Positions 1 through 34,420 of a stretch of 64,000 nt of DNA are shown here, piece by piece. The position numbers were made by a program, and so were the translations under genes. This DNA is from Chamaelirium japonicum. Lineage: Eukaryota; Streptophyta; Magnoliopsida; Liliales; Melanthiaceae. Positions within the stretch are counted from its first letter, which is position 1. The number at the start of each line of letters is the position of its first letter. Below the pieces are notes generated by a model. That model saw nothing but the letters and a program-made list of their open reading frames with translations, had not been told where the DNA came from and searched no databases. The DNA is taken from positions 95,020,697-95,084,696 of the forward strand of contig OX393551.1 of the NCBI GenBank assembly GCA_947650365.1. Direction: 5' to 3'.

Positions 1-230
1 AAATAAGAAGGAATCTAAATTCCAAATCTCCACTTCTATCTTCGTTTATCTCTCCGTTCTCTTATCTATTCTTCTCTCTCTTTTGTGTAGTATTGGAATT
101 TAGATTCCTTCTTACTTCACACCTATACCCATAGCGAATGGACTAGAGTAGGACTTCTTCTCTCTTCTCTCTTTATTTATCTCTCTGTTCTTTTTTCTTT
201 TCTTCTCTCTCTTCTGTCTTAGTTTCTCTC

Positions 231-259
231 TTAATTAAATAATTATATTATTTAATTAA
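231..259. repeat. AT hinge palindrome
   Basis: Two perfect 13-base arms, TTAATTAAATAAT and its complement, flank a three-base TAT loop. A pyrimidine-rich tract lies on the left and a purine-rich tract on the right, so the hinge is the tip of a longer foldback. Related hinges lie at 976, 33,288, 34,037, 34,392, 39,381, 54,051, 59,082 and 59,400. Confidence 0.8.
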
Positions 260-785
260 ATTATTTAGGTAGAAGAGAGAAGAGAACGGAGAGATAAATG
301 AAGTGAGAAGAGAGAAGAAGTCCTACTCCAGTCCATTGGCCATGGGTATAGGTGTAAAGTAAGATTGAATCTAAATTCCAAAACTCCATAGAAAAGAGGA
401 GAAAAGAGAAGAGAACGGAGAGATAAATGAAGAGAAAAGAGAGAAGAAGTCGTGCTCCAGTCCATTGGCCATGGGTATAGGTGTAAAGTAAAAAGGAATC
501 TAAATTTGAAAACTCTATAAAAAAAGAGGAGAAAAAAGAAGAAAATTAAGAGGTAAACAAAGAGAGAGGAGAGAAGAAGTTCTTCTCTAGTCCATTGGCC
601 ATGGGTATAGGTGTAAAGTAAAAAGGAATCTAAATTCCAAAACTCCACAGAAAAGAGAGGAAAAAAGTGAGGAGAATGAAGAGATAAATAAAGAAAGAAT
701 GGAGAAGAAGTCTTGCTCCAGTCCATTGTCCATTGGTATAGGTGTGAGTAAGAATGAATCTAAATTCCAAAACTCCACTTCTATC
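255..785 (-). repeat. Tandem array of about four 130-bp E+CT units
   Basis: The CTCC/CTCT core at the end of the E module recurs at 384, 513, 643 and 773, giving spacings of 129-130 bp. Each unit is one E module plus one purine-rich module as read on the plus strand. The inverted counterpart is the 131-bp tandem array at 33,514-34,030. The period is not a multiple of three, so reading frames shift from unit to unit. Confidence 0.8.
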
Positions 786-975
786 TTCGTTTATCTCTCC
801 GTTCGCTTCTTTCTTCTTCTCTCTCTTCTGTATAGGTTTAGAATTTAGATTCCTTATGATTTCACACCTATAGCCATGGCGAATGGACTAGAGCAGGACT
901 TCTTCTCTCTTCTCTCTTTATTTATCTCTCTGTTCTCTTCTTTTTTCTTCTCTGTCTTCTATCTTAGTTTCTCTC

Positions 976-1004
976 TTAATTAAATAATTATATTATTTAA
1001 TTAA
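976..1004. repeat. AT hinge palindrome, second copy
   Basis: The same 29-base hairpin as at 231-259, again with pyrimidine on the left and purine on the right. Its inverted counterpart is near 33,288-33,314. Confidence 0.8.
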
Positions 1005-1310
1005 ATTATTTAGGTAGAAGAGAGAAGAGAACGGAGAGATAAACGAAGAGAGAAAGAAAGAAGAAGTCTTGCTCTAATCCATTGGCCATGGGTATAGGTA
1101 TAAAGTAAGAAAGAATCTAAATTACAAAACTCCACAGAAGAGAGAGAGAAGAAGAAAGAAGAGAACGGATAAGAGAGGAAAGAATCAAGATGAGAACATA
1201 TAGATAAACAAAGAGAGAAGAGAGAAGAAGTCCTGCTATAGTCTATTGGCCACGGGTATAGGTATGAATTAATAAGGAATCTAACTAACAAAACTTCACA
1301 GAAGAAAGAA

Positions 1311-2915
1311 AAGATAAGAACATTCTTCTATTTAATTAATAAAACTAGAGAGATTTATATTATGTTATTTAGGTTCTCTTCTTTCTTCCCATAACACGTT
1401 ACCAGCACGAACATATCGAGCCCAACTGACTAGTCACAAGAAAATGAAGAGTGGAACAAAAACAAAAAAGAGAGAAAAAGAGAGAAGAGAATGAAGAGAT
1501 AAATGAAGAGAGAAGAGAGAAAAAGTTCTGCTCCAATCCTTTGGCCACGGGTATATGTGTGAAGTAAGAAGTAATTTAAATTCCAAAACTCCACTTCTCA
1601 ATATTTATACGACCTCTTTAGGGTGGGGCACATGTAACGGCTCTCGCTTTCTCCCATCTCACAACACGTTATCGGCACGAACATGTCGAGCCCAGCTGAC
1701 CAGTTATAAGAAAATAGATAGAGAAACGAAGACAACAGAGAGAGAAGAAGAGAGATGAGAATAGAGAGATAAATAAAAAAAGAAGAGAGAAGAAGTCCTA
1801 CTCCAGTCCATTGGCCACGGGTATAGGTGTGAAGTAAGAAGGAATCTTAATTCAAAAACTCAACAAAAGAGAGTGAAGAAGAAAGAAGGGAATGAAGAGA
1901 TAAATAAAGAGAGAAGAAAGAAGTAGTCATGCTCCAGTTCATTGGCCATGGATATAGGTGTGAAGTAAAAGGGAATCTAAATTCCAAAACTTCAATTATA
2001 TCTTTGTTTCTCTCTCTGTTTTCTTACGACTGGTTAGCTGAGATCGACATGTTCGTGCAGATAACGTGTTGTGAGATAGGAGAAAGAGAGAGCCGTCAAA
2101 CGTGACCCACCCTAAAGGGGTCGTATATTATTTATTATTTATAGAGTAAGCTTACTTAGGGTCTAAGCAGTCTATAGGAATCTCTAATCCATGGGAGATG
2201 AGAGAAGAGAATAGAGAGATTAAATTATATTATTGAGAAATAGAGTTTTGGAATTTAGATTACTTCTTACTTCACACCTAGACCCGTGGCCATTGGACTG
2301 GAGTAGGACTTCTTCTCTTTTCTCTCTTTGTTTATCTCTCTGTTCTCTTCTCTCTTGTTCTTTCTCCTCTAATTTTGTTTCTCTCTCCATTTTCTTGTGA
2401 CTGATCAGCTGGGCTCGACATGTTCGCACTGATAATGTGTTGTGAGATAGGAGAAAGAGAGAGCCGTCAAATATGCACCACCCTCAAGGGGTCGTATAAA
2501 TATTGAAAAGTTGAGTTTTGGAATTTAGATTCCTTCTAAGTACTCTACACCTATACTCATGGCTAATGGACTGGAGCATGACTTCTTCTCTATTCGTTTA
2601 TCTCTTCGTTTATCTCTTTATTCTCTTCTCTCTTCTTCTCTCTCTTCTATCTTTGTTTCTTTCTTTATTTTCTCTTCTCTTTTCTTCTCTCTCTTCTGTC
2701 TTCATTTCTTTCACTTGACTGGTAGGCTGGGCTTGATATGTTCATATTGATAACGTATTGTGAGGTGGAAGAAAAAGAGAGCTGTCAAACGTGCTCCACC
2801 CTAAATGGGTCATATAAATATTGAGAAGTGGAGTTTTGTAATTTAGATTCCTTCTTACTTCACACCTATACCCATGGCCAATGGACTAGAGCAGGACTTC
2901 TTCTTTTTTCATACT
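1311..2915. repeat. E/CT/P array with orientation switch
   Basis: The left edge is an AT-rich stretch (about 1,320-1,390) seen again at 32,925-32,985, 38,995-39,065, 53,670-53,735, 58,890-58,960 and 59,690-59,755. Primer-site-like P modules read plus near 1,396 and 1,666, then minus near 2,052, 2,424 and 2,740. The switch falls near 1,990-2,030. The minus units joined through AAATATTGAGAAGT form direct repeats of about 300 bp. Confidence 0.8.
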
Positions 2916-3030
2916 GATAATGTTACTATAATTTTTTTAATTAAATTAATCATTTAATTTAAATGAAAAGAGTTTTGAAATTTACTATTATAATCATAAT
3001 AACATTGAGATGATACTATTGAGAAGTAAA
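2916..3030 (-). mobile_element. Partial MITE-like element (right end)
   Basis: It contains the inner AT part and one inverted end (TTACTAT...GATGATACTATTGAG) of the element seen whole at 8,245-8,388. The other end is missing. Matching partial copies lie at 60,870-60,995 in the same orientation and at 31,391-31,495 inverted. Confidence 0.6.
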
Positions 3031-3640
3031 GTTTTGAAATTTAGATTCCTTCTTACTTTACACTTATACCCATGGCGAATGGACTGGAGCAGGACTTCTT
3101 TTATCTTCTCTCTTCGTTTATCTCTCTGTTCTCTTCTCTTTTCTTCTCTCTCTTCTATCTTCGTTTCTCTCTTCGTTTTTTGCGACTAGTCGGCTGGGCA
3201 CGACATGTTCGTGCTGATAATGAATTGTGAGATGGGAGAAAGAGAGAGCCATCAAACATGCCCCACCCTAAAGGGGTCATATATTATTTATAGGGTAAGC
3301 TTACTTAGGGCCTAAGGAATCTATGGGAAATCCTAATCCATGGGAGAAGAGAGAAGAGAACGAAGATATTTAATTATATTATTGAGAAGTGGAGTTTTGA
3401 AATTTTGATTCCTTCTTACTTCACTCCTATACCCTTGGCGATTGGACTGGAGTAAGACTTATTCTCTCTTTTCTCTTTATTTATCTCTTCATTCTCTTCT
3501 CTCTTCTCATAACACGTTATCAGCACGAACATATCGAGCGCAGCCGATCAGTCCCAAGAAAACGATACGAGAAATGAAGACAAAAGAGAGAGAAGAGAAC
3601 AGAGAGATAAATAAAGAGAGAAGAAGAGAAATAAAATATT
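3031..3640. repeat. E/CT/P array
   Basis: An E module, a CT module and a minus-strand P module near 3,213 lead into a minus-strand R/U5-like piece with an AGGGCCTAAG palindrome. A plus P module near 3,513 follows. The whole pairs, inverted, with about 30,766-31,390. Confidence 0.75.
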
Positions 3641-3815
3641 TTTCATGCTCCTAAATTTATATAAATTATTTAATAAATATGAAATAGTTTATAATTAAAT
3701 ATTTAAATATTAACATTGAGATAATACTATTTAAATATTTAAAAAAATAATATATTTTATAATTTCTAAAAAAATATTAATTGATATAAATAAAATAAAT
3801 ATGCAATCTCCCATC
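3641..3815 (-). repeat. AT-rich insert type 4
   Basis: About 175 bp of AT-rich sequence with the same edges in five places: here, and in the opposite orientation at 30,590-30,765, 36,595-36,770, 42,346-42,510 and 56,621-56,800. The other copies carry a short piece of the MITE-like end (AGTATCATCTCAAC) inside. It splits a P-type module from a CT module. Its origin is unknown. Confidence 0.6.
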
Positions 3816-5840
3816 TCACAACACGTTATCGGCACAAAAATGTCAAGCCCAATGGATGAGTCATAAAAATGGAGAGAGAAACAAAGATAGAAGAGAGAGA
3901 AGGAGAGAGAAAAGAACGGAGAGATAAATGAAGAGATAAGATAGAAGAAGTCTTGCTCCAGTCCATTCACCATGGGTATAGGTGTGAAGTAAGATAGAAT
4001 CAAAATTCCAAAACTCCACTTCTCAATGAATTTTTTGCTATAAAAAAAATTTTTAATTTTCTTTAAAAAAGTTTAAAACAATACAACTATTATAAGATCG
4101 TTCGATCAGATGGCAATGGACTGGAGCAAGACTTCTTCTATCTTCTATCTTCGTTTATATCTCTGTTCTTTTCTCTCTTCTGACTTCGTTTCTCTTTCTA
4201 TTTTCTTGTGATTGGTTGACTGAGTTCGACATATTCGTACTGATAACTTGTTGTAAGATGGGAGAAAGAGAGAGTCATCAAACGTGCCCCATCTAAAGGG
4301 GTCGTATATTATTTATAGGGTAAACTTACTTAGGGCCTAAGCAATCTATGGGAAAGCCTAATCCATGGGAAAAGAAAGAAGAGAACGAAGAGATTTAATT
4401 ATATTATTGAGAAGTGGAGTTTTGGAATTTAGATTCCTTCTTACTTCACAACTATACCCGTAGCTAATAGACTGGAGCAAGATTTCTTTTCTCTTCTCTT
4501 GTTGTTTATCTCTTTGTTCTCTTCTCTCTTCTTCTCTTTCTTTTGTCTTCATTTCTCTCTCTATTTTCTTATGACTCATCGGTTGGGCTCGACATGTTCA
4601 TACTGATAAAAATATTATGAGATTGGAGAAAGAGAGAGCCGTCAAATATGCCCCACCCTAAATGGGTTGTATAAATATTAAAAAGTGGAATTTTGGAATT
4701 TAGATTCTTTCTTACTTTGTACCTATACCCATGGCTAATGGACTGGAGCAGGACTTCTTTTCTCTTCTCTCTTCATTTATCTCTCCGTTCTCTTCTTTTT
4801 TCTTCTCTCTTTTTTGTGGAGTTTTGGAATTTAAATTCCTTCTTACTTCACACCTATACCCGTGTAAGAAAAGACTATTTAAATAATTAATTCTTAGTTC
4901 TCTTCTCTCTCTTTTGTCTTTGTTTCTCTCTCTGTTTTCTTTTGACTAGTCCGTAGGGATAGATATATTCATGCTGATAACATTTTGTGGGATGGGAGAA
5001 AGAGAGAGCCGCCAAACGTGCCCTACCCTAAAGGGGTCATATTTTATTTATAGGGTAAGCTTACTTAGGGCCTAAGCAATTTATGGTAAACCCTAATCCA
5101 TAGAAGAAAAGAGTAGAGAACGGAGAGCTTTAATTATTTTATTGAGAAGTAGAGTTTTGGAATTTAGATTCCTTCTTACTACACACCTATACCCATGGTG
5201 AATAGACTGGAGCAGCTCTTCTTTTCTCTTCTCTATTCGTTTATTTCTCTGTTTTCTTCTCTCTTCTTCTCTCTCTTCTGTCTTCGTTTCTCTCTCTGTT
5301 TTTGTATGACTAGTCGGTTGGGCTCGATATATTCGTGCTGATAATGTGTTGTGAGATGGGAGAAAGAGAGAGCCACCAAACATGCCCCACCCTAATTAGA
5401 TTTCTTCTTACTTCACACCTATACCCATGGCCAATAAGTTGGAGCAGGACTTCTTCTATCTTTTCTCTTCGTTATTCTCCCTATTGTCTTCTCTCTTCTT
5501 TTCTCTCTTCTGTCTTACTTTCTCTTTCTATTTTCTTGTGATTGGTCGGCTAGGATCGACTTGTTTGTGTTGATAACGTATTATATGATAGAGAAGAAAA
5601 GAGCCGTCAAACGTGCCCCACCCTAAAGGGGTCATATAAATATTGAGAAGTAGAGTTTTGAAATTTAGATTATTTCTTACTTTATACTTATACATGTGGT
5701 GAATGGACAGGAGCAGGACTACTTCTCTCTTCATTTATCTCCCCATTTTTTTCTTTTTTTTTCTCTCTATTCTGTCTTCGTTTCTCTCTCTGTTTTCTTG
5801 TGACTGGTCGGCTACGCTCGATATGTTCATACTGATAACA
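3816..5840. repeat. E/CT/P array, mainly minus
   Basis: A P module reads plus near 3,826, then six read minus near 4,230, 4,600, 4,970, 5,335, 5,565 and 5,830, the last abutting the L module that follows. At about 4,020-4,120 there is a fragment of AT-block edge plus GATCGTTCGATC, matched inverted at 30,291-30,390. An AGACTATTTAAATAATTAAT landmark near 4,870 recurs at 29,530 (inverted) and 44,150 (direct). Confidence 0.8.
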
Positions 5841-6008
5841 TGTTGTGAGATGGGAGAAAAAGAGAGCCATCAAATGTGCTCCACTCTAAAGGAATCGTAT
5901 ATTATTTATAGGATAAGCTTACTTAGGTCCTAAGCAATCTAAAAGAAACCCTAATACATAGGAGAGATCCAACGGTGGACAACCATCCGATCGAACGATC
6001 TTATAACA
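5841..6008 (-). repeat. 168-bp LTR-like module (L), copy 1
   Basis: On the minus strand it starts TGTTATAAGAT and ends ATCTCACAACA, an imperfect 11-base inverted repeat. Inside, in order, are GATCG-rich start sequence, a telobox-like motif, the GTAAGCTTAC and CTTAGG-type palindromes, a TATA-like box and a pyrimidine-rich end. A P module follows directly at 5,840 downward. Six full copies have exactly this length. The LTR reading is inference from the TG...CA ends, the TATA box and the adjoining primer-site-like motif. Confidence 0.6.
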
Positions 6009-6475
6009 GTTGTAATATTTTAAATTTTTTAAAGAAAATAATAAATTATTTTTAAAGCAAAAAATTCGGGTGTGCCTTATCTTTCTTTTTTACTTCCTAT
6101 TATTTAATTAATTTAATTAGTTTAATAAATTAAATAGTTAAATAATTAAATAAATATTTAATTATCTGTATAACTAAATATTTAAATTATTTAAATAATT
6201 TATTTATTATTTAAATTTTAAAATAAATAAATATTAATTTGATTATTTAAAAAAAATTAAGTTTTTTAAAAAATATTTTATTATTTATATATTTAAAAAA
6301 TTAATTTATTATTTAAATAACAAGTAAATATTTATTGAATTATTATTTTATTTTATTACTTAATTAAATAATTAATTTTTTTATTTATTTTAATTAATAT
6401 TTTATAATTTAATAAAAAAAATTAATTATTTAATTACATAACAAATTTATTAAAATTGTTATTTTTTTAACTATA
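6009..6475. repeat. AT block, short type
   Basis: Almost pure A/T after an edge that reads through a GGTGTGCC motif near 6,070. It begins right at the start of the L module. The same block lies at 27,946-28,403 (inverted) and 45,280-45,745 (direct), and the first part also opens the long AT blocks at 35,380, 40,803 and 55,230. There is no coding potential. Confidence 0.75.
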
Positions 6476-6837
6476 TCTTTTTCTCTCTCTTCTGACTTTG
6501 TTTCTCTCTCCGTTTTCTTTTGACTGGTCGGTTAGGCTCGACATGTTCGCGCTGATAATGCATTATGAGATGGAAAAAAGAGAGAGTTGTCAAACATGCC
6601 CCACCCTAAAGGGGTCGTATATTATTTATAGGGTAAGGTTACTTAGGGCCTAAGCAATCTATGGAAAACCCTAATCCATGGGAGAGATCCGACGGTGGAC
6701 GGCTATCCGATCGAACGTGCCCCACCCTAAAGGGGTCATATTAATCATTTATTTAAATAATTATTAAATCAATTCTCTTAATTAGTAAACTTACCTTATA
6801 AATATTTAATTATATATAATTGATTATCGCCATGGGT
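6476..6837 (-). repeat. Truncated L module fused to an AT-rich landmark
   Basis: A CT and P module lead to a minus L module beginning at 6,561. It runs to about 6,714, where GATCGAAC joins straight to a second GTGCCCCACC segment, then to an AT-rich stretch (6,738-6,835). The same hybrid junction recurs near 27,690 (inverted) and 45,990 (direct), so it was formed once and then copied. Confidence 0.65.
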
Positions 6838-8244
6838 ATAGGTGTGAAGTAAGAAGGAATATAAATTCCAAAACTCCACTTCTCAATAGTATCATCTCAA
6901 TATTATTATGATTATCATTGTAATATTACTATAATTTTTTTCATTAAATTAATTAATTCTTTAATTATTAAATAATTTGAAAATTTTAATAATTAAGTTT
7001 ACTAATTAACGTGTTATGAGATGGGAGAAGGAAAGAGCCGTCAAACTTCTCTCTTCTCCCATGGATTAGGATTTCCTATAGATTGCTTAGGCCCTAAGTA
7101 AGCTTACCCTATAAATAATATACGACCCCTTTAGGGTGGGGCATATTTATAGCTCTCTCTCTCTCTCATCTCATAGCACTTACCCTATAAATAAAATATG
7201 ACCCCTTTAGGGTGGGGCACGTTTGACGGCTCTCTCTTTCTCCCATCTCACAATATATTATCAGCACGAACATATTGAGCCCAGCCGACCAGTCACAAGA
7301 AAACAGAGAGAGAACAAAGACAGAAGAGGAGTTTTGGAATTTAGATTCCTTCTTACTTCACACCTATACCCGTGGTTAATGGACTGGAGCATGACTTATT
7401 CTCTATAGAAGAGAGAGAAGAAGAGAGAAGAGAAGAAGATTTAAACAAAGACAAAAGAGAGAGATATGACTGGTCGGCTTGGCTCGATAGTAAGAAGTGG
7501 CACACCCGAATTGCTTAGGCCTTAAGTTCAAATATTAAAAGATACACCGTCGAATCTCTTCCATAGATTAGGGTTTCCCATAGATTACTTAGGTCCTAAG
7601 TAAGCTTACACTATAAATAATATACGACCCCTTTAGGGTGGGGCATGTTTAACAGCTCTCTCTTTCTCCCATCTCACAACACGTTATCAGTACGAACATG
7701 TCGAGCCCAGCGACAAGTCACAAGAAAATAGAGAGAGAAACAAAGACAGAAAAGATAGAAGAAGAGAGAAGAGAATGGAGAGATAAACGAAGATAGAAGA
7801 GAGAAGAAGTCCTGCTCTAGTCCATTGGCCATGGGTATAGTTGTGAAGTAAGAAGAAATCTAAATTTCAAAATTCAACTTTTCAATAATATAATTAAATC
7901 TCTCAATTCTCTTCTCTCTTCTCCCATGGATTAGGGTTTCCCATAGATTACTTAGGCACTATGTAAGCGTACCCTATAAATAATATACGACCCCTTTAGG
8001 GTCGGGCATTTTTCATGGCTCTTTCTTTCTCCCATCTCACAATACGTTATCAGCACGAACATGTCGAGCCCAGCCGACCAGTCATAAGAAAACGGAGAGA
8101 GAAACGAAGATAAAAGAGAGAGAAGATGAGAGATGAGAACGGAGAGATAAATGAAAAGAGGAGAGAGAAGAAGTTATGCTCCGGTCCATTCACCATGGGT
8201 ATAGATATGAAGTAAGAAGGAATCTAAATTTTAAAACATCACTT
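6838..8244 (+). repeat. Plus-oriented array of L-derived and P modules
   Basis: It opens with an E module and a left MITE-like end (about 6,890-6,950) running into AT sequence. Plus P modules follow near 7,260, 7,685 and 8,050, each preceded by a TATAAATA box and a CTAAGTAAGC palindrome region. The fusion near 7,480-7,560 (CACACCCGAATTGCTTAGG) recurs at 26,850-26,930 inverted and 46,865-46,925 direct. Confidence 0.75.
7568..7576 (+). promoter_or_regulatory. Telobox-like motif in an L module (representative)
   Basis: TTAGGGTTT, the reverse of AAACCCTAA, sits about 50 bases before the TATAAATA box. It recurs in many L-type modules of both orientations, for example near 7,933, 10,468, 20,995, 28,459, 30,049, 40,739, 48,379, 50,049, 57,103 and 62,482. 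In plant promoters such motifs occur with genes of the translation machinery; any activity here is unproven. Confidence 0.45.
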
Positions 8245-8388
8245 CTCAATAGTATCTTCTCAAAATTATCATGATTATCATAGTAATATTACTATAAATT
8301 TTTTAATTAAATTAATTATTTGATTAAAACAAAGAGAGAAGGGAATTTACTATGATAATCGTAATAACGTTGAGATGATACTATTGAG
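8245..8388. mobile_element. MITE-like element with 42-bp inverted ends
   Basis: The left end (8,245-8,286) and right end (8,347-8,388) are inverted copies matching at about 37 of 42 positions; the consensus starts CTCAATAGTATCATCTCAAC. The inner 60 bases are AT-rich with a short purine run. There is no room for a transposase. The first bases (CTCAATA) also occur at E-module edges elsewhere, so the true tips may lie a few bases inside. No clear target duplication is visible. The superfamily is not assigned. Confidence 0.6.
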
Positions 8389-11150
8389 AAAACTCCAATT
8401 CTCAGTAATATAATTAAATCTCTCTGTTCTCTTCTATCTTCTCCTATGGATTAGGTTTTTCTATGGATTGCATAGGCCCTAAGTAAGCTTACCTTATAAA
8501 TAATATACTATCCCATTAGGGTGGGGCACGCTTGATGGCTCTCTCTTTCTCCCATCTCATAATACATTATTAGCACGAACATGTCGAGCCTAGCCGACCC
8601 ATCTTAAGAAAATTGATAGAAAAACGAAGACAGAAGTGGAGTTTTGAAATTTAGATTCCTTCTTACTTCACACCTATACCCATGGCCAATTGACTAGAGC
8701 AGGACTTCTTCTCTCTTTATTCTTTATTTATCTATCCATTCTCTTCTCTCTTCTACTCTTTCTTTTGCTTTCGTTAAACTCCATTTCGTTTGATGGCTCT
8801 CTCTTCTATCTTCGTTTATCTCTCTGTTCTCTTCTCTCTTCTTTTGTCTTCGTTTATCTCTTTATTTTTCTTATTACTAGTCGACTGGGCTCGACATGTT
8901 CATGCTGATAACGTATTATGAGATGGGAGAAAGGGAGAGCCGTCAAATATGCCCCACCCTAAAGGGGTCGTATATTATTTATAGGGTAAATTTACTTAGG
9001 GCCTTAGTAATCTATGAGAAACCCTAATTCATGGGAGAAGAGACAAGAGAACGGAGAGATTTAATTATATTATTGAGAACTGGAGTTTTGGAATTTAGAT
9101 TCCATTTTACATAACACCTATACCCATGGATAATAGACTGGAGGAGAACGTCTTCTCTCTTCTTTCTTCGTTTATCTCTACATTCTCTTCTCTCTTCTCC
9201 TCTTTACTAACAACACGTTATCAGCATGAACATGTCGAGCCCAGCAGACAACCATTTAGAATTTAACTAAATTATTTAAATATATTATTTAAATTATTTA
9301 TCTCTCTATTCTCTTATCTATTCTTCTCTTTCTTCTGTCTTTATTTATCTCTCCGGTTTTTGGTGACTGGTCGGCTGGGCTCGATATGTTCGTGCTGATA
9401 ACAAGTTGTGAGAGAAAATAAGAAGAGAGAAGAGAAGGAAGAGATAAACAAAGAAAGAAGAGAGAAGTACTGCTCCAATCCATTCACCATGGTATAGGTG
9501 TGAAGTAAGAAGGAATCTAAATTCCAAAACTCTACTTTTAAATAATATAATTAAATCTCTCAATTCTCTTCTCTCTTCTCCCATGGATTAAGGTTTCCTT
9601 TAAAATGTTAGGACCTAAGTAAGCTTACCCTATAAATAATATACGACCCCTTTAGGGTGGGACATATTTAAATGTTCTTCCTTTCTTCCATCTCATAACA
9701 TGTTATCGGTATGAACATGTCGTGCCCAGCAAACCAGTCGCAAGAAAAGAGAAAGAGAAACGAAGACAGATGTGGAGTTTTGGAATTTAAATTCCTTCTT
9801 ACTTCACACCTATACTCGTGGCCAATAGCCTCGAGTAGGACTTCTTCACTCTTCTCTTCGTTTATCTCTCCGTTCTCTTTTCTCTTCTTCCCATACTTCT
9901 GTCTACGTTTCTCTGTTCGTTTATTGAGAGAAGAAGAGGAGTTTAACAAAGACAAAAAAGAGATAAGAAGCGAGAAGAGAACGGAGAGATAAATAAAAGG
10001 AAAAGAGAGAACTTCACACCTATACCCGTGGCCAATGGACTGAAGCAGAACTTCTTCTCTCTTCCCTCTTCGTTTATCTCTCCGTTTTCTTCTCTCTTTT
10101 TCTTTCTCTTCTGTCTTCGTTTCTCTATCCGTTTATATAGAGAAGAAGTGGAGTTTAACAAAGACGGAAGAGAGATAAGAAGCGAGTAAAGAACATAGAG
10201 ATAAATAAAGAGAGAAGATGTCCTGCTCCAGTCCATTGGCCAAGGGTATAAGTGTGAAGTAAGAAGGAATCTAAATACCAAAACTCCACTTCTGTCTTCG
10301 TTTCTCTTACTGTTTTCTTACGACTGGTCAGCTGGACTCGATATATACGTACTGATAACATATTGTGAGATAGGAAAAAGAGAAAGTCGTCAAACATGCC
10401 CTACCCTAAAGGCGACGTATATTATTTATAGAGAAAGCTTACTTAGGGACTAAGCAATCTATGGGAAACCCTAATCCATAGACGAAGAGAAAAGAGTATT
10501 GAGAGATTTAATTATATTATTGAGAAGTGGAGTTTTGGAATTTAGATTCCTTCTTACTTCATACATATATCCATGGCGAATAGACTGGAACATGAATTCT
10601 TCTTTCTTCTCTCTTTATTTGTCTCTCCGTTCTCTTCTCTCTTCTTACAACACGTTATCAACATGAACATGTTGAGCCCAACCGACCAATCACAAGAAAA
10701 CGGAGAAAGAAATGATGATAGAAGGGAGAAGATAACAGAGAGATAAACGAAGAGAGAAGAAGTCCTGCTCCAATCCATTGGCCACGCGTATAGCTGTAAA
10801 GTAAGAAGGAATCTAAATTCCAAAACTCCACATAAGAGAGATAAGAAGAGAGAAGAGAACGGAGAGATAAATGAAGAGAGAAGAGAGAAGAAGTCCTACT
10901 CCAGTCCATTGGCCATGGGTATAGGTATGATGTAAGAAGGAATCTAAATTTCTAAACTCTGCTTCTATCATCCTTTCTCTCTCCGTTTTCTTGTGACTGG
11001 TCGGCTGGGCTTGACATGTTCGTACTGATAACGTATTATGAGATAGGAGAAAGAGAGAGTCATCAACAATGCCCCACCCTAAAAGGGTCGTATATTATTT
11101 ATAGGATAAGCTTACTTAGGGCCTAAGTAATCTATAGGAAATCCTAACCA
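8389..11150. repeat. E/CT/P array, alternating orientation
   Basis: P modules read plus near 8,570, minus 8,900, plus 9,220, minus 9,395, plus 9,705, minus 10,350, plus 10,655 and minus 11,020, so plus and minus alternate nearly every 300 bp. A landmark at 9,247-9,300 (TTTAGAATTTAACTAAATTA) recurs at 25,011-25,050 inverted and 47,150 direct. The whole stretch pairs, inverted, with about 23,131-26,010. Confidence 0.8.
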
Positions 11151-12288: not shown

Positions 12289-12419
12289 CTATTTGGTTAT
12301 TCGACTTGCTCGACCAGCCTTGTCTAGGATGTCTTTAAGTGGGTGCTCTGAGATGATGGTAATCGGATGGGAGACAAAATAGGGTTGAAGACGTCGTGAT
12401 GCGGTGAGCAAGGCTAGTA

Positions 12420-23130: not shown

Positions 23131-26021
23131 CGTCGGATCTCTCCCATGGTTAGGATTTTCTATAGATTACTTAGGCCCTAAGTAAGCTTACCCTATAAAT
23201 AATATACGACCCTTTTAGGGTGGGGAATGTTTGACGACTCTCTCTTTCTCCCATCTCATAATACGTTATCAGTACGAACATGTCGAGCCCAGCCGACCGG
23301 TCACAAGAAAATGGAGAGAGAAAGGAAGATAGAAGTGGAGTTTAGGAATTTAGATTCCTTCTTACGTCACACCTATACCCATGGCCAATGGACTGAAGTA
23401 GGACTTCTTCTCTCTTCTCTCTTTATTTATCTCTCCGTTCTCTTCTCTCTTCTTATCTCTCTTATGTGGAGTTTTGGAATTTAGATTCCTTCTTACTTTA
23501 CAGCTATAGGTGTGGCCAATGGATTGGAGCAGGACTTCTTCTTTCTTTGTTTATCTTTTTGTTATCTTCTCTCTCTTCTATCATAATTTCTCTCTCCATT
23601 TTCTTGTGACAGGTCGGTTGGGCTCGACATGGTCATGTTGATAACGTGTTGTGAGAAGAAAGAAGAGAACGGAGAGACAAATAAAGAGAAAAGAAAGAAG
23701 AAGCCATGTTCCAGTCCATTCGCCATGGGTATATATGTGAAGTAAGAAGGAATCTAAATTCTAAAACTCCACTTCCCAATAATATAAATAAATCTCTTAG
23801 TTCTCTTTTCTCTTCATCTATGGATTAGAGTTCTCATAGATTGCTTAAGCCCTATGTAAGCTTTCCCTATAAAAAATATACGACTCCTTTAGGGTGGGGC
23901 ATGTTTGACGACTTTCTCTTTCTCCCATCTCACAACATGTTATCAGTCAGTATATGTCGACCCCAGCTGACCAGTCGTAAGAAAACAGTAAGAGAAACAA
24001 TGACAGAAGTGGACTTTTGGTATTTAGATTCCTTCTTACTTCACACTTATACCCTTGGCCAATGGACTGGAGAAGGACATCTTCTCTCTTCATTTATCTC
24101 TCTATTCTCTTCTCTCTTCTTTTCTCTCTTCTATCTTCGTTAAACTCCACTTCTTCTCTATATAAAAGGATAGAGAAACGAAGACAAAAGAGAAAGAAAA
24201 AGAGAGAAGAAAACGGAGAGATAAACGAAGAGAGAAGAGAGAAGAAGTTCTGCTCCAGTCTATTGGCCACGGGTATAGGTATGAAGTTCTATCTTTTCTC
24301 TTTATTTATCTCTCCGTTCTCTTCTTGGTTCTTATCTCTCTTTTTTCTTCGTTAAACAACTCTTCTTCTCTCAATAAACGGATAGAGAAACGTAGACAGA
24401 AGTGTAAAAAGAAGAGAAAAGAGAACGGAGAGATAAACAAAGAGAAGAGTGAAGAAGTCCTACTCTAGGCTATTGGCCATGGGTATAGGTATGAAGTAAG
24501 AAGGAATTTAAATTCCAAAACTCCACTTTTGTCTTCGTTTCTTTTTCTCTTTTCTTGCGATTGGTCAGATAGGCACGACATGTTCGTGCTGATATGAGAT
24601 AGAAGAAAGGAAGAGCCGTTAAACATACCCTACCCTAAAGGGGTCGTATATAATTTATAGGGTAAGCTTACTTAGGTCCTAAGCATTTTAAAGGAAACCT
24701 TAATCCATGGGAAAAGAGAGAAGAGAATGGAGAGATTTAATTATATTATTTAAAAGTAGAGTTTTGGAATTTAGATTCCTTCTTACTTTACACCTATACT
24801 CGTGGTGAATGGACTAGAGCAGTACTTCTTCTCTCTTCTTTCTTTGTTTATCTCTCCCTTCTCTTCTCTCTTCTTATTTTTTCTCACAACTTGTTATCAG
24901 CACGAATATATCGAGCCCAGCCGACCAGTCACCAGAAACCGGAGAGAGAAATAAAGACAAAAGAAAAAGAAGAAGAGATAAGAGAATAGAGAGATAAATA
25001 ATTTAAATAATATATTTAAATAATTTAGTTAAATTCTAAATGGTGATCTGCTAGGCTCGACATGTTCATGCTGATAATGTGTTATGAGTAAAGAGAAGAA
25101 GAGAAAAGAGAATGGAGAGATAAATGAAGAAAGAAGAGAGAAGAAGTCCTCCTCCAGTCCATTATCCATGGGTATAGGTGTTATGTAAAAAGGAATCTAA
25201 ATTCCAAAACTCCACTTCTCAATAATATAATTAAATCTCTCCGTTCTCTTCTCCCATGGATTAGGGTTTCTCATAGATTACTAAGGCCCTAAATAAGTTT
25301 ACCCAATAAATAATATACGACCCCTTTAGGGTGGGGCATATTTGACGGCTCTCACTTTCTTCCATCTCATAATACGTTATCAGCATGAACATATCAAGCC
25401 CAGTCGACTAGTAATAAGAAAAATAGAGAGACAAACGAAGACAAAAGAAAAAAGAAGATAACGGAGAGATAAACGAAGATAGAAGAGAGAACTTCACACC
25501 TATACCCATGGCCAATAGACTGGAACAGGACTTCTTCTCTTCTCTCTTTGTTTATCTCTCCGTTCTTTTCTTTCTTCTTCTCTCTCTTCTGTCTTTGTTT
25601 CTCTCTTCGTTTATTGAGAAAAGAAGTGTAGTTTAACAAAGACAAAAGAGAGAGAAGAAGAGAGAAGAGAATGGAGAGATAAATGAAAATATAAGAGAGA
25701 AGAAGTCCTACTCCAATCAATTGGCCATTGATATAGGTGTGAAGTAAGAAGGAATCTAAATTTTAAAACTCCACTTCTGTCTTCGTTTTTCTATCTATTT
25801 TCTTGTGATGGGTCGGCTGGGCTCGATATGTTCGTGCTGATAATGTATTATGAGATGGAAGAAAGACAGAGCCATCAAACGTGCCCCACCCTAAAGGGAT
25901 AATATATTATTTATAAGGTAAGCTTACTTAGGGCCTAAGCAATCCATGGGTAAACCTAATCCATGGGAGAAGATAGAAGAGAACGAAGAGATTTAATTAT
26001 ATTACTAAGAATTGGAGTTTT
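23131..26021. repeat. E/CT/P array, inverted partner of 8,389-11,150
   Basis: P modules read plus near 23,265, 23,940, 24,895 and 25,375, and minus near 23,630, 24,590, 25,070 and 25,835. The TTTAGTTAAATTCTAAA landmark near 25,030 is the complement of that at 9,250. It also matches, inverted, the stretch 46,920-48,990. Confidence 0.8.
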
Positions 26022-26164
26022 CTCAATAGGATCATCTCAACGTTATTACGATTATCATAGTAAATTGCCTTCTCTCTTTGTTTTAATCAAACAATTAATT
26101 TAATTAAAAAAATTATAGTAATATTACTATGATAATCATAATAACGTTGAGAATATACTATTCA
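26022..26164. mobile_element. MITE-like element, second whole copy
   Basis: 143 bp with inverted ends at 26,022-26,063 and about 26,124-26,164; CTCAATAG and CTATTCAG are the tips. It is the inverted-arm partner of 8,245-8,388. The inner part keeps AATTTAATTAAAAAAATTAT. Confidence 0.6.
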
Positions 26165-27410
26165 GAAGTGATGTTTTAAAATTTAGATTCCTTCTTACTT
26201 TATATCTATACCCATGGTGAATGGACTGGAGTATGACTTCTTCTCTCTTCTCTTTTTGTTTATCTCTTCATTCTCATCTCTTATCTTCTCTCTCTTCTAT
26301 CTTCATTTCTCTCTCCATTTTCTTATGACTGGTCGGCAGGGCTTGATATGTTCGTGCTGATAATATATTGTGAGATGGGAGAAAGAGAGAGCCATGAAAT
26401 ATACCCCACCCTAAAGGGGTCGTATATTATTTATAGGGTACGCTTACTTAGTGCCTAAGCAATCTATGGGAAATCCTAATCCATGGGAGAAGCGAGAAGA
26501 GAATGGAGAGTTTTTATTATATTATTGAGAAGTTGAATTTTGGAATTTAGATTTCTTCTTACTTCACAACTATACCCATGGCCAATGGACTAGAGCAGGA
26601 TTTCTTCTCTCTTCTATCTTCATTTATCTCTCTATTCTCTTCTCTCTTCTTCTATCTTTTCTGTCTTTGTTTCTCTTACCGTTTTCTTGCGACTTGTCGC
26701 TGGGCTCGATATGTTCGTGCTGATAACGTGTTGTGAGATGGGAGAAAGAGAGAGCCGTTAAACATGCCCCACCCTAAAGGAGTTGTATATTATTTATAGT
26801 GTATGCTTACTTAGGGCCTAAGTAATCTATAGGAAACCTTAATCTATGGGAGAGATTCGACGGTGTATCTTTTAATATTTGAACTTAGGGCCTAAGCAAT
26901 TCGGGTATGCCACTTCTTACTATCAAGCCCAGCCGACCAGTCGTATCTCTCTCTTCTATCTTTGTTTATATCTTCGTTATCTTCTCTCTTCTTCTCTCTC
27001 TTCTGTGGAGAAGAAGGCCTGCTCCAGTCCATTGACCACGGGTATAGGTGTGAAGTAAGAAGGAATCTAAATTCCAAAACTCCTCTTCTGTTTTTGTTTC
27101 TCTCTCCGATTTCTTGCGACTGGTCGGCTGGGCTCGATATGTTCGTGCTGATAATGTGTTGTGAGATGGGAGAAAGAGAGAGTCATCAAATGTGCCCAAC
27201 CCTAAAGGGGTCATATATTCTTTATAGAGTAAGTGTTATGAGATGAGAGAAAGAGAGAGCCGTAAATGTGCCCCACCCTAAAGGGGTCGTATATTATTTA
27301 TAGGGTAAGCTTACTTAGGGCCTAAACAATCTATGGGAAATCCTAATCCATGGGAGAAGAAAGAAGTTTGACGACTCTCTCTTTCTCCTATTTCACAACA
27401 CGTTAATTAG
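26165..27410 (-). repeat. Minus-oriented array, partner of 7,010-8,240
   Basis: Minus P modules lie near 26,355, 26,715 and 27,145, each followed by an L-derived piece with the AGGGCCTAAG palindrome. The fusion landmark with GCAATTCGGGTATGCCAC is at 26,850-26,930. A solitary E module and a short CT tract sit at 27,010-27,090. Confidence 0.75.
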
Positions 27411-27945
27411 TAAACTTAATTATTAAATTATTTAAATTATTAAATAATTAAAGAATTAATTAATTTATTTAAAAAAATTAGAGTAATATTTCAATGATAA
27501 TCATAATAATATTAAGATGATACTTTTGAGAAAACGAGTTTTGGAATTTAGATTCCTTCTTACTTCACACCTATACCCATGGCGATAATCAATTATATAT
27601 AATTAAATATTTATAAGGTAAGTTTACTAATTAAGAGAATTAATTTAATAATTATTTAAATAAATAATTAATACGACCCCTTTAGGGTGGGGCACGTTCG
27701 ATCGGATGGCTGTTCACCGTCGGATCTCTCCCATGGATTAGGGTTTTTCATAGATTGCTTAGGCCCTAAGTAAGCTTACCCTATAAATAATATACGACCC
27801 CTTTAGGGTGGGGCACGTTTGACAGCTCTCCCTTTCTTCCATCTCATAACGCATTATCAGCGCGAACATGTCGAGCCTAACTGACCAGTCAAAAGAAAAT
27901 AGAGAGAGCAACGAAGATAGAAGAGAGAGGAGAAGATATAGTTAA
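27411..27945. repeat. AT landmark, MITE-like right end and truncated L module
   Basis: AT-rich sequence ends in a MITE-like right end near 27,480-27,535 and an E module, then the AT landmark matched at 6,738-6,835. At about 27,690 GGGGCACGTTCGATCGG is the inverted hybrid junction also seen at 6,714 and 45,990. A plus P module near 27,855 follows a TATAAATA box. Confidence 0.65.
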
Positions 27946-28403
27946 AAAAATAATAATTTTAATAAATTTGTTATGTAATTAAATTATTAATTTTTTTTAT
28001 TAAATTATAAAATATTAATTAAAATAAATAAAAAATTAATTATTTAATTAAGTAATAAAATAAAATAATAATTCAATAACTATTTACTTGTTATTTAAAT
28101 AATAAATTAATTTTTTGAATATATAAATAATAAAATATTTTTTTAATTAACTTATTTTTTTTTAAATAATGAAATTAATATTTGTTTATTTTAAAATTTA
28201 AATAATAAATAAATTATTTCAATAATTTAAATATTTAGTTATATAGATAATTAAATATTTATTTATTTATTTAATTATTTAATTTATTAAACTAATTAAA
28301 TTAATTAAATAATAGGAAGTAAAATAGAAAGATGAGGCACACCTGAATTTTTCGCTTTAAAAATAATTTATATTTTTCTTTAAAAAATTTAAAATATTAC
28401 AAC
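27946..28403. repeat. AT block, short type, inverted copy
   Basis: The complement of 6,009-6,475, ending in AAAATATTACAAC just before an L module. Confidence 0.75.
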
Positions 28404-28571
28404 TGTTATAAGATCATTCGATCGGATGGTTGTCCACTGTTGGATCTCTACCATGGATTAGGGTTTCTTTTAGATTGCTTAGGCCCTAAGTAAGCTTATC
28501 CTGTAAATAATATACGACTCCTTTAGGGTGGAGCACATTTGATGGCTCTTTCTTTCTCCCAACTCACAACA
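28404..28571 (+). repeat. 168-bp LTR-like module, copy 4
   Basis: TGTTATAAGAT at 28,404 to AACTCACAACA ending at 28,571, 168 bp, followed by a plus P module ACATTATCAGCATGA. It is the inverted-arm partner of copy 1. Confidence 0.6.
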
Positions 28572-30589
28572 CATTATCAGCATGAACTTGTCGAGCCCAG
28601 ATGACCAGTCACTAGAAAACGGAGAGAGAAACGAAGAGAGAAGAGAGAGAAGAAAAAAGAAAAAAACGGGGAGATAAATGAAGAGAGAAATAGTCCTGCT
28701 CTAGTCCATTCACCACGGGTATAAGTATAAAGTAAGAAAGAATCTAAATTTCAAAACTCCACTTCTCAATATTTATATGACCCGTTTAGTAAGGGGCACG
28801 TTTGACGGCTCTCTTTTTCTCTATCACATAATACATTATCAACACGAACATGTCGATCCTAGCCGACCAATCATAAGAAAACAGAGAGAGAAAGAAGACA
28901 GAAGAGAGAATAGAAGAAAGAAGAGAACGGGGAGATAAACAAAGAGAAAAGATAGAAGAAGTCCTGCTCCAACCTATTACCTACGGGTATAGGTGTGAAG
29001 TAAGAAGAAATCTAATTAGGGTGGGGTATATTTCATGGCTCTCTTTTTTTCCCATCTCACAACACATTATCAGCACGAATATGTCAAGCCCAACTGACTA
29101 GTCATACAAAAACAGAGAAAGAAAAGAAGACAGAAGAGAGAAGAAAACAGAAGAAAATAGAGAGATAAACGAATAGAGAAGAAAGAAGAAGTCCTGCTCC
29201 AGTCTATTCGCCATGGGTATAGGTGTATAGTAAGAAGAAATCTAAATTCTAAAACTCCACTTCTCAATAAAATAATTAAAGCTCTCCATTCTCTTCTCTT
29301 TTCTTCTATGGATTAGGGTTTACCTTAGATTGCTTAGGCCCTAAGTAAGCTTACCCTATAAATAAAATACGACCCCTTTAGGGTAGGGCATGTTTGGCAG
29401 CTCTCTTTTTCTCCTATTTTACAAAATATTATCAGCACAAACATGTCTAGCCCTACCGACCAGTCATAAGAAAACAGAAAGAGAAACAAAGACAGAAGAG
29501 AGAGAAGAGGACTAAGAATTAATTATTTAAATAGTATCTTCTCACACGGGTATAGGTGTGAAGTAAGAAGGAATCTAAATTCCAAAACTCCACAAAAGAG
29601 AGAGAAGAAAAGGAAAGAGAACAGAAAGATAAATAAAGAGAGAAGAGAGAAGAAGTCCTGCTCCAGTCCATTAGCCACTGGTATAGGTACGAAGTAAGAA
29701 AGAATCTAAATTCCAAAATTCCACTTTTTAATATTTATACGACTCGTTTAGGGTGGGGCATATTTGACGGCTCTCTCTTTCTCCCATGTCATAATACTTT
29801 ATCAGTACCAACATGTCGAGCCCAGCCGACCAGTCATAAGAAAATGGAGAGAGAAACAAAGATAAAAGAGAAAAAAGAAGAGAGAAGAGAACAGAGAGAT
29901 AAACAATAAGAGAAGAGAGAAGAAGCCTTGCTCCAGTCTATTAGCTACGGGTATAGTTGTGAAGTAAGAAGGAATCTAAATTACAAAACTCCACTTCTCA
30001 ACAATATAATTAAATCTCTTCATTCTCTTCTTTCTTCTCCCATGGATTAGGGTTTCTCATAGATTGCTTAGGCCCTAAGTAAGCTTACCCTATAAATAAT
30101 ATATGACCCCTTTAGATGGGGCATGTTTGACGATTCTATCTTTCTTCCATCTTACAACATGTTATCAGCACGAATATGTCGAACCCAGTCGATGAATAAC
30201 AAGAAAATAGAGAGAGAAACGAAGACAGAAGAGAGAAGAGAATAGAGATATAAACGAAGATAGAAGATAGAAAAAGGCTTGCTCCAGTCCATTGCCATCC
30301 GATCGAACGATCTTATAATAGTTGTATTGTTTTAAACTTTTTTAAAGAAAATTATAAATTATTTTTATAGCATAAAATTCATTGAGAAGTGGAGTTTTGG
30401 AATTTTGAATCCATCTTACTTCACACCTATACCCATGGTGAATGGATTGGAGCAAGACTTCTTCAATCTTATTTCTTCGTTTATCTCTCCGTTCTCTTCT
30501 CTCTCCTTCTCTCTTTTATCTTCGTTTCTCTTTCCTTTTTTTATGACTAGGCCATTGGGCTTGACATTTTTGTACTGATAACGTGTTGT
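28572..30589 (+). repeat. Plus-oriented E/GA/P array
   Basis: Plus P modules lie near 28,830, 29,065, 29,430, 29,800 and 30,160, with one minus near 30,575. Spacing is about 240-370 bp. Most are joined to the previous E module through CTCAATATTTATA, that is, a TATA-truncated L. An AT fragment at 30,291-30,390 starts with CATCCGATCGAACGATC and pairs with 4,020-4,120. Confidence 0.8.
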
Positions 30590-30765
30590 GAGATAGGATA
30601 TTGCATATTTATTTTATTTATATCAATTAATATTTTTTTAAATATTATAAAGTATATCATTTTTTAAAATATTTAAATAGTATTATCTCAATGTTTATAT
30701 TTAAATATTTAATTATAAAATATTTTGTATTTATTAAATAATTTATATATATTTATGAGCATAAA
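30590..30765 (+). repeat. AT-rich insert type 4, inverted-arm copy
   Basis: It begins GGATATTGCATATTTATTTT and ends at a TTTCTCTTCTTCTC tract. It is the complement of 3,641-3,815 and is in the same orientation as the copies at 36,595, 42,346 and 56,621. Confidence 0.6.
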
Positions 30766-31390
30766 ATATATTTTATTTCTCTTCTTCTCTCTTCATTTAT
30801 CTCTCTGTTCTCTTCTCTCTCTTTTGTCTTCGTTTCTCGCATCGTTTTCTTGGGACTGGTCGGCTAGGCTCGATATGTTCATGCTGATAACGTTTTGTGA
30901 GAAGAGAGAAGAGAGTGAAGAGATAAATAAAGAGAAAAGAGAGAAAAAGTCTTACTCCAGTCCAATCGCCAAGGGTATAGGAGTGAAGTAAGAAGGAATC
31001 AAAATTTCAAAACTCTACTTCTCAATAATATAATTAAATATCTCCATTCTCTTCTCTTTTCTCCCATGGATTAGGATTTCCCATAGATTCCTTAGGCCCT
31101 AAGTAAGCTTACCCTATAAATAATATACGACCCGTTAGGGTTGGGCATGTTTGATGGCTCTCTCTTTCTCCCATCTCATAATTCATTATCAGCACGAATA
31201 TGTCATGCCCAGCCAACCAGTTGCAAGAAAACGAAGAGAGAAATAAAGATAGAAGAGAGAGAAGAAAAGAGAAGAGAACAGAGAGAAAAACGAAGAGAGA
31301 AGATAAAAGAAGTCCTGCTATAGTCCATTCGCCATGGGTATAAGTGTAAAGTAAGAAGGAATCTAAATTCCAAAACTTCACTTCTCAATA
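30766..31390. repeat. E/CT/P array
   Basis: A minus P module near 30,885 and a plus one near 31,185 flank a GA tract, E module and L-derived piece. Pairs inverted with 3,031-3,640. Confidence 0.72.
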
Positions 31391-31495
31391 GTATCATCTC
31401 AACGTTATTACGATTATCATAGTAAATTCCAAAACTCTCTTCATTTTAATTAAATGATTAATTTAATTAAAAAAATTATAGTAACATTATCAGCA
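31391..31495 (+). mobile_element. Partial MITE-like element (left end)
   Basis: It has the left inverted end and inner AT part, then runs into ACATTATCAGCATGA, a P remnant, in place of the right end. The same truncated junction occurs at 37,391-37,502 and 57,311-57,425, so the truncation predates those duplications. Confidence 0.6.
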
Positions 31496-33280
31496 TGAAA
31501 AAAGAAGAAGTCCTGCTCCAGTCCATTGGCCATGGGTATAGGTGTGAAGTAAGAAGGAATCTAAATTACAAAACTCCACTTCTTATTATTTATATGATCC
31601 TTTTAGGGTGGAGCACGTTGACGTCTCTCTTTTTCTTCCACCTCATAATACGTTATCAGTACGAACATGTCAAGCCCAGCCTACCAGTCATGTGAAAGAA
31701 ACAAAGACAGAAGAGAGAGAAGAAAAGAGAAGAGAAAATAAAGAGAGAAACGAAGACAGAAGAGAGAGAAGAAGAAAGAGAAGAAGAGAGAAGAGAATGA
31801 AAAGATAAATGAAGGGATAAATGAAGAGAGAAGAAGTCCTGCTCCAGTCCATTAGCCACGAGTATATATGTGGAGTACTTAGAATAAATCTAAATTCCAA
31901 AACTCAACTTCTTAATATTTATACGACCCCTTTAGGGTGGTGCATATTTGACGGCTCTCTCTTTCTCCTATCTCACAACACGTTATCAGTGCGAACATAT
32001 CGAGCCCAGCTGATCAGTCACAAGAAAACGGAGAGAGAAATGAAATTAGAAGAGAGAGAACAAGATAGAAGAGAACAGAGAGATAAACAAAAAGAGAAGA
32101 TAGAAAAAGTCCTAATCCAGTCCATTGGCCACGGGTCTAGGTGTGAAGTAAGAAGTAATCTAAATTCCAAAACTCTATTTCTCAATAATAGAAAGAGCAT
32201 GTTTGACGGCTCTTTCTTTGTCCTATCTCACAACACGTTATCTGCACGAACATATCGAGCTCAGCTGACTAGTCATAAGAAAACAGAGAGAGAAACGAAG
32301 ACATAAGTGAAGTTTTGGAATTTAGATTCCTTTTTACTTCACACCTATATCCATGGCCAATGAACTGGAGCAGGACTTCTTCTCTCTTCTCTTTTTATTT
32401 ATCTCTCCGTTCTCTTCTTTCTTCTTCTCTTTCTTCTGTTGAGTTTTTGAATTTAGATTCCTTCTTACTTCACACCTATACCCGTGGCCAATGGACTGGA
32501 GTAGGACTTCTTTTCTCTTCTTTTTTTGTTAATCTCTCCATTCTTTCTCTATTCTTCTCTCTCTTTTGTCTTCGTTTCTCTATCTATTTTCTTATGACTG
32601 GTCGGTTGGGCTCGACATGTTCGTGCTGATAACATGTTGTAAAATAGGAGAAAAAGAGAGCCGTCACACGTGCCCCACCCTAAAGAGGTTGTATAAATAT
32701 TGAGAAGTGGAGTTTTGGAATTTAAATTACTTCTTACTTCACACATATACCCGTGGCCAATGGATTGGAGCTGGACTTCTTATCTCTTCTCTCTTCGTTT
32801 ATCTCTTCATTCTCTTTTCTCTTTTTCTCTCTCTTTTGTTTTTATTTCTCTCTTCGTTTTCCTATGACTAGTCAGTTGGGCTCGATATGTTCGTGCGGGT
32901 AACGTATGGTGGGAAGAAAGAAGAGAACCTAAATAAAATAATATAAATCTTTCTTGTTTTAATAATTAAATAGAAGTATGTCCTTATCTTTTCTTTCTTC
33001 TGTGAAGTTTTGGAATTTAGATTCCTTATTAATTCACACCTATACCCGTGGCCAATAGACTAGAGCAGGACTTCTTCTCTTTTTGTTTATCTATATGTTC
33101 TCATCTTGATTCTTCTGTCTCTTCTCCATTCTTTTCTTTCTTCTTCTCTCTCTTCTGTGGAGTTTTGGTATTTAGATTCTTTCTTATTTCATACCTATAC
33201 CCGTGACCAATGGACTGGAGCATGACTTCTTCTCCCTTTCTCTTTTTGTTTATCTCTCTGTTCTCTTCTCTCTTCTACCT
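31496..33280. repeat. E/CT/P array
   Basis: Plus P modules near 31,650, 31,990 and 32,235 are followed by minus ones near 32,625 and 32,895. At 31,690-31,800 the purine tract is doubled. The AGAGAACCTAAATAAAATAA landmark lies at 32,925-32,985. Copies of this order lie at 37,501-39,370 and 57,426-59,080. Confidence 0.78.
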
Positions 33281-34420
33281 AAATAATTTAATTAAATAAT
33301 ATAATTATTTAATTGAGAGAGAAACTAAGATAGAAGAGAGAGAAGAAAAAAGAAGAGAACAGAGAGATAAATAAGGAGAGAAGAGAGAAGAAGCCCTGCT
33401 CTAGTCCATTGACCAAGAGTATATGTGTGAAGTTAGAAGGAATCTAAATTCTAAAACTTTACAGAAGAGAGAGAAAAAGAGAGAAGAGAATGGAGAGATA
33501 AACGAAGATAGAAGTGGAGTTTTGGAATTTAGATTCATTCTTATTTCACACCTATACCCATGGACAATGGACTGGAGCAGGACTTCTTCTCTCTTCTCTC
33601 TTTATATATCTCTTTGTTCTCTTCACTTTTCTCCTCTCTTTTCTGTGGAGTTTTCGAATTTAGATTCCTTTTTACTTTACACCTATACCCATGGCCAATG
33701 GACTGGAGCAGGACTTCTTCTCTCTTCTCTCTTCGTTTATCTCTCAATTTTCTTCTCTTTTCTCCTCTTGTTTTTGTAGAGTTTTCGAATTTAGATTTGT
33801 TCTTACTTTACACCTATACCCATGGCCAATGGACTGGATCACGGCTTCTTCTCTCTTCTCTCTTCGTTTATCTCTCCATTCTTTTTTCTTTTCTCCTTTC
33901 TTTTCTGTGGAGTTTTGGAATTTAGATTCAATCTTACTTTACACCTATACCCATGGCCAATAGACTGGAGTAGGACTTCTTCTCTCTTCTTACTTTGTTT
34001 ATCTCTCTATTCTCTTCCCTCTTCTACCTAAATAATTTAATTAAATAATATAATTATTTAATTAAGAGAGAAACTATAACAGAAGAAAGAAAAAGAGAGA
34101 AGAGAACAGAGAGATAAATAAAGAGAGAAGAGAGAAGAAGTCCTACTCCAGTCCATTCGCCATGGGTATAGGTGTAAAGTAAGAAGGAATCTAAATTCTA
34201 AAACTACACAAAAGAGAGAGAAGAATAGATAACAGAACGGAGAGATAAACGAAGATAGAAGTGGACTTTTGAAATTTAGATTCCTTCTTACTTCACACTT
34301 ATACCCGTAGCCAATGGACTGGAGCAAGACTTCTTTTCCCTTTCTCTCTTCGTTTATCTCTCTATTCTCTTCTTACTTCTACCTAAATAATTTAATTAAA
34401 TAATATAATTATTTCATTGA
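33281..34420. repeat. Hinge region with 131-bp tandem units
   Basis: AT hinges at 33,288-33,314, 34,037-34,065 and 34,392-34,418 alternate with E, CT and GA modules. Between them, at 33,514-34,030, four E+CT units follow with starts at 33,516, 33,647, 33,778 and 33,909, a strict 131-bp period. This is the inverted partner of the first 1.0 kb of the window. Confidence 0.82.
33514..34030 (+). repeat. 131-bp tandem repeat, four units
   Basis: Each unit has GGAGTTTTGGAATTTAGATT, the TGGCCAATGGACTGGAG-type core and a pyrimidine tract. Because the plus strand of the unit is poor in A-containing stop triplets, all three plus frames are largely open. The overlapping open frames starting at 33,560, 33,691 and 33,822 are offset by exactly one unit and are not separate genes. 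Confidence 0.85.

Follow-up and report, generated by a model that had tools for sequence, protein, structure and literature searches.

Arms, spacer and surrounding array

We analysed a 64,000-nucleotide stretch of the genome of Chamaelirium japonicum (assembly GCA_947650365.1, contig OX393551.1, positions 95,020,697 to 95,084,696 of the forward strand; hereafter, the window), in which a large inverted repeat lies embedded in an array of shorter repeats. Self-comparison of the window with BLASTN resolves this inverted repeat, proposed in the initial annotation with arms of about 11 kb, into three collinear inverted pieces that make up two arms, denoted A and A'. The spacer between them contains a fragment of a Ty3/gypsy-type long terminal repeat (LTR) retrotransposon, and an older copy of the A' region, copy C, lies further along the window. 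The features that define the locus are as follows.

4..11429, + strand: arm A, the derived, truncated copy (self-BLASTN and arm alignment), with its outer end outside the window
11425..11430, no strand: breakpoint joining the end of A to a truncated gypsy element (junction letters; A' and copy C carry array sequence here)
11430..22841, no strand: spacer between the arms, composed of the gypsy fragment and array sequence (self-comparison)
22842..34290, - strand: arm A', the reverse-complement partner, in its native context (self-BLASTN, arm alignment and junction letters; homology to the third copy continues past 22,842)
44110..54651, - strand: copy C, a third and older version of the A' region, interrupted by gaps and lying in the opposite orientation to 17,768-29,572, about 85-87% identical (self-BLASTN and chaining)
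1-11,430 and 17,054-64,000, both strands: scrambled array of a unit of about 298 bp in near-random orientation (profile tiles)

The three inverted pieces pair 4-2104 with 34290-32198 (91.4% identity), 2228-8791 with 32190-25619 (92.3%) and 8798-11429 with 25490-22842 (91.3%), giving the collinear inverted match of 4-11,429 to 34,290-22,842 that the initial annotation expected to see as a continuous anti-diagonal. Paired positions taken every 500 columns add to 34,271-34,418, in agreement with the sums of about 34,290-34,420 that it listed. Aligned end to end, arm A and the reverse complement of A' are 92.4% identical over 11,281 aligned columns with 32 indels; arm A begins at the window edge, making 11.4 kb a minimum arm length. 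The four largest gaps between the arms measure 122, 116, 26 and 12 bases. The 122-bp stretch is missing from A at 8,792, and the 26-bp gap in A lies opposite a 22-bp tandem duplication of A'. A carries the 116-bp stretch and A' lacks it; elsewhere in the array, copies of this site agree with A over about 350 bases, and some of them also match A', at lower identity. A module of about 130 bp forms head-to-tail arrays of about 3.9 copies each at 271-777 and 33,514-34,025.

The arms are set in sequence that is repeated throughout the window. Counting self-hits of 100 bp or more, coverage of the window reaches 90.7% at a median depth of 69, with the low-complexity filter off, such that AT-rich stretches count as covered, and the only stretches longer than 100 bp that escape coverage are 11,433-16,820 and 61,813-61,989. 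The 12,909 self-hit pairs at E<=1e-20 are divided almost evenly between direct (6,501) and inverted (6,408) orientations, as are the self-hits of 500 bp or more at that threshold, 209 in all (109 direct and 100 inverted). In three first-order Markov resamples of the window, none gave an off-diagonal self-hit at E<=1e-5. Against this background, no other repeat pair of the window is as long as A/A', and among pairs of 500 bp or more it alone reaches 90% identity: just three of the 209 long self-hits do so, all of them pieces of A/A'. Identities among the 3,722 self-hits of at least 200 bp lie mostly between 74% and 88%, with three further short pairs elsewhere at 90-91%. The second-longest single self-hit, 18,777-23,107 against 53,347-49,012, spans 4.4 kb at 85.9%.

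The unit at 20,217-20,540 was turned into a profile, which gave 291 matches and, after removal of 9 that overlapped, 282 tiles covering 43,835 of the 64,000 bases. A head-to-tail satellite would have one predominant orientation, whereas 131 tiles lie on the + strand and 151 on the - strand. Neighbouring tiles within 60 bp of each other share orientation in 103 cases and oppose in 91 (84 and 72 when arm A is left out). Most of the window outside the gypsy fragment is thus one scrambled repeat family. We describe this array as heterochromatin-like and gene-poor, with A/A' as its largest and least diverged long duplication.

Several further elements are present in the array. Nested direct duplications occur, for example 30,390-33,768 against 36,388-39,851 at 83-85% identity, and AT-rich low-complexity stretches lie between units at 6,099-6,445, 17,130-17,366 and 35,472-36,213. 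The core of the unit, for example at 20,340, carries a conserved ACACGTTATCAGCACGA downstream of a TATAAATA-like box, and 128 copies of the core are found at <=14 mismatches over 52 bases, a count made without a chance control. Core and box together are reminiscent of an LTR or a miniature retroelement. The window has 26 open reading frames (ORFs) of at least 100 amino acids, and the four array ORFs scanned gave no Pfam match above cut-off; the best match below it, Folate_carrier (E=0.0022, 17.2 bits against a cut-off of 27), was set aside. No tRNAs and no Rfam matches at gathering scores were found in the window. Searches for exact patterns of the repeat core returned no matches, with 33 bases in viral contigs or with 30 bases in prokaryote genome contigs, searches that diverged copies would escape, and a distant BLASTN comparison of the unit at 20,217-20,540 with plasmids and phages was likewise negative. 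These negatives, taken with gypsy pol lying among dense repeats, indicate a eukaryotic host.

The modular build of the arms raises the alternative of a giant foldback transposon, in which the arms would be terminal inverted repeats made of subrepeats and the spacer would be cargo. Tiles of the 298-bp unit do fill the arms as subrepeats would, and arms built from short modules are also a property of foldback elements such as Tetris (PMC4079207). The same tiles, however, fill the array outside the arms. The modules go on past 34,290 to the window end, unlike the end of an element, and the inner side of A' is also continuous with array sequence. The 24 pieces scanned, of which the gypsy fragment supplied 20 and the thinly covered array only 4, gave no transposase match. 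We therefore consider a transposon of this kind very improbable.

Divergence of the arms

The differences between A and A' comprise 597 transitions and 256 transversions, and the Jukes–Cantor distance between the arms is 0.080. Over the whole arm alignment, transition rates are 16.0% at CpG cytosines, 7.8% at CHG and 6.4% at CHH. With copy C as the outgroup, two blocks of the arms provided 4,181 sites at which changes could be polarized, placing 146 changes on A and 151 on A'; distances to copy C are 12.7% for A and 12.8% for A'. About half of the 297 polarized changes are C-to-T or G-to-A (149), and 58 are the reverse. The longest identical run between the arms is 94 bases; 1,000 shuffles gave a median of 89 for this run, with the 95th percentile at 121.

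The CpG-biased transitions, the equal branches and the lack of an excess of long identical runs argue that the arms are separately evolving DNA, and their sequence pattern fits two probably methylated loci decaying independently. A sequencing fold is rejected on this mutation pattern and on the small number of indels (32 in 11.3 kb). The initial annotation had likewise regarded the arms as too different for a recent sequencing or assembly fold, a view upheld by their 92.4% identity and by differences that are biased to transitions and to CpG. At plant substitution rates of 1.3e-8 to 6.5e-9, if these apply here, the duplication would be about 3-6 million years old.

These data also bear on whether the arms might be a maintained palindrome, in the style of those on sex chromosomes, that gene conversion keeps alike. 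Large arms and a spacer are compatible with such a palindrome, whose arms should be nearly identical. Here, identity is only 92.4%, identical runs are distributed as in random placement, the branches are equal, and no Pfam match above cut-off came from the four array ORFs scanned. A maintained palindrome is consequently hard to credit.

Breakpoint, gypsy fragment and proposed origin

Copy C indicates which of the two arms has kept its surroundings. It is collinear with the A' side across 22,842, through the same 4.4-kb hit at 85.9% identity (18777-23107 against 53347-49012), and the chained match between the A' side and copy C extends over 17768-25275 and 46911-54651 at 85.4%. At the breakpoint, all three copies read AAGT, followed by CCATTGACC in A', CCATTGGCC in copy C and ATAGATCC in A. 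A' and C both continue into CCATTG, whereas ATAGATCC is the beginning of non-array, gypsy sequence. Because homology to copy C runs through 22,842 while A stops at 11,429, A' lies in its original context and A is a truncated copy, as the junction letters also show. The end of arm A and the truncation of the gypsy element coincide at 11,429/11,430.

Beyond this junction, the spacer carries the following pieces of the retrotransposon.

11430..17053, - strand: Ty3/gypsy-type LTR retrotransposon fragment with 5' LTR, leader and broken gag/pol (Pfam); cut at 11,430 past RNase H
11773..12288, - strand: RNase H piece of pol (Pfam RVT_3, E=3.9e-12; RNase_H, E=3.9e-7)
12289..12819, - strand: reverse transcriptase-associated RNase H-like domain in two open pieces (RT_RNaseH on 12289-12504, E=1e-9; RT_RNaseH_2 on 12505-12819)
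12870..13415, - strand: reverse transcriptase in two broken pieces (Pfam RVT_1, E=1.5e-11 and 3e-7)
16,335-16,354: primer-binding-site-like stretch adjoining the probable 5' LTR (read by eye)
16355..17053, - strand: probable 5' LTR with ends TGTGGG...CCCACA (read by eye)

The fragment therefore retains reverse transcriptase and RNase H of pol, together with a probable LTR and a putative primer-binding site, both recognized by eye, and it presumably belongs to the gypsy clade. The RT_RNaseH_2 match (E=1.9e-6) scores 28.3 bits, under its cut-off of 29.8. For the RNase H piece, a pattern search of viral contigs gave three hits, of which none was confirmed. Gag-side pieces gave no Pfam match above cut-off, and no Pfam match of any kind, integrase included, came from 11424-11711, the one piece scanned nearest the cut. 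A weak hint of Asp_protease_2 (E=0.2) in one gag-side piece was set aside as below cut-off, as were matches of gypsy pieces to DUF6669, DUF6149 and a dynein coiled-coil model (E=2.4e-5). The window holds no second LTR, and the probable LTR has no self-hit outside itself; a 43/86-bp tandem repeat lies inside it at 16,821-17,015.

The gypsy part of the spacer is single-copy in the window, 11,433-16,820 being free of self-hits of 100 bp or more at E<=1e-20. The remaining spacer, about 17,054-22,841, consists largely of array sequence and includes an AT-rich stretch; this part is repeated and has an older copy in C. The spacer is single-copy only relative to the event that produced A and A'.

We propose that the inverted repeat arose long ago as a fold-back-type inverted duplication and is one among several duplications nested in the array, and consider this reading probable, with appreciable room for others. 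The ancestral order, reading leftwards, would have been A', further array sequence and the gypsy retrotransposon. To repair a break within the gypsy element, the broken end would have folded back near 22,842, or fused there unequally with its sister. The A' side would then have been copied in reverse, yielding arm A, the 11.4-kb spacer and a gypsy element cut at the junction, after which the arms would have diverged independently to about 8%. A single event of this kind is favoured because it accounts together for the spacer, for the truncated state of A and for a gypsy element that breaks off at the same base.

Several points weigh against this proposal. The outer end of A lies beyond the window; a later deletion could also make the end of the arm coincide with the gypsy truncation; an assembler that joined two array segments would give an identical junction; and the mutation-pattern tests, which weigh against a fold, do not discriminate a misjoin at 11,429/11,430. 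Two alternatives deserve consideration. In a two-step origin, the A' region would have been duplicated directly, then inverted or recombined between inverted units, and a later deletion would have truncated both A and the gypsy element. The near equality of direct and inverted duplications among the array's long self-hits is in its favour; it requires two or three events rather than one, and we judge it unlikely. In an assembly misjoin, two diverged, non-adjacent array segments, one ending in A and one starting in the gypsy element, would have been joined by the assembler. The depth of self-hit coverage makes this misjoin-prone sequence, and the junction between A and the gypsy element is abrupt. 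The junction nevertheless borders sequence that is unrepeated in the window, and arms 8% apart are separable by accurate long reads, leaving a misjoin as a rather doubtful explanation. The duplication can be explained by known rearrangement processes and looks like an ordinary consequence of chromosome repair, not like a new kind of element.

Possible array growth and known systems

Taken alone, A/A' is an ordinary, datable rearrangement in repeat-rich DNA. Its setting may matter more: an array that occupies most of the other 58 kb, with near-random orientation and few junction types. Counting only neighbouring tiles less than 25 bp apart, and binning junction types to 10 model positions, we found 161 tight junctions, 85 between tiles of the same orientation and 76 between tiles of opposite orientation. 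Four types account for 102 of the 161: +180/-300 (30), +300/+170 (27), +300/+40 (27) and -80/+180 (18); some of these junctions were inherited through segmental duplication and are not independent events. Recurrent junctions lie in or next to purine-rich tracts, as read from the sequence without an enrichment test, and these tracts suggest switching at short inverted homologies. We offer as a speculation, with low confidence, that fold-back template switching, recurring at short inverted purine/pyrimidine tracts, enlarges the array at every scale, from flips of the 130-bp module through units of about 300 bp to 11-kb segments. If this is true, the outcome would be a satellite-like array of random orientation with few recurrent junctions, in contrast to the head-to-tail array that arises from unequal crossing-over. 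Should the pattern extend over the entire array, it would document, in natural sequence, inverted template switching as a mode of growth of satellite-like DNA.

At the level of titles and abstract openings, the literature yielded no description of the array repeat. Segmental duplications are at least 1 kb long with at least 90% identity, and their usual definition leaves out high-copy repeats. A/A', with 11.3 kb at 92.4%, resembles them in size and identity; unlike them, it consists of high-copy repeat sequence. The array itself resembles the Tetris/TIR-220 satellite arrays derived from foldback elements, which are modular repeats in kilobase-sized arrays with inverted parts (PMC4079207). It differs from them in the near-random orientation of its units, and neither target-site duplications nor the ends of an element were identified here; the few array ORFs scanned also showed no tie to a DNA transposon.

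The closest parallel in anatomy is with human fold-back duplications, for which Hermetz et al. 2014 (PMC3907307) give a spacer between the native and the inverted copy as the signature; a symmetric fusion of sisters would give none. The spacers described there are mostly a few kilobases long, the longest sequenced being about 70.5 kb, and 13 junctions have 2-8 bp of inverted microhomology (PMC3907307). As in those cases, the structure in C. japonicum comprises an inverted copy and a kilobase-sized spacer, flanked by the native copy on one side and by the truncated copy on the other. Unlike the human cases, it lies within a repeat array, its arms are about 8% diverged and its host is a plant, and the likeness to the duplications of that report (PMC3907307) is one of anatomy.

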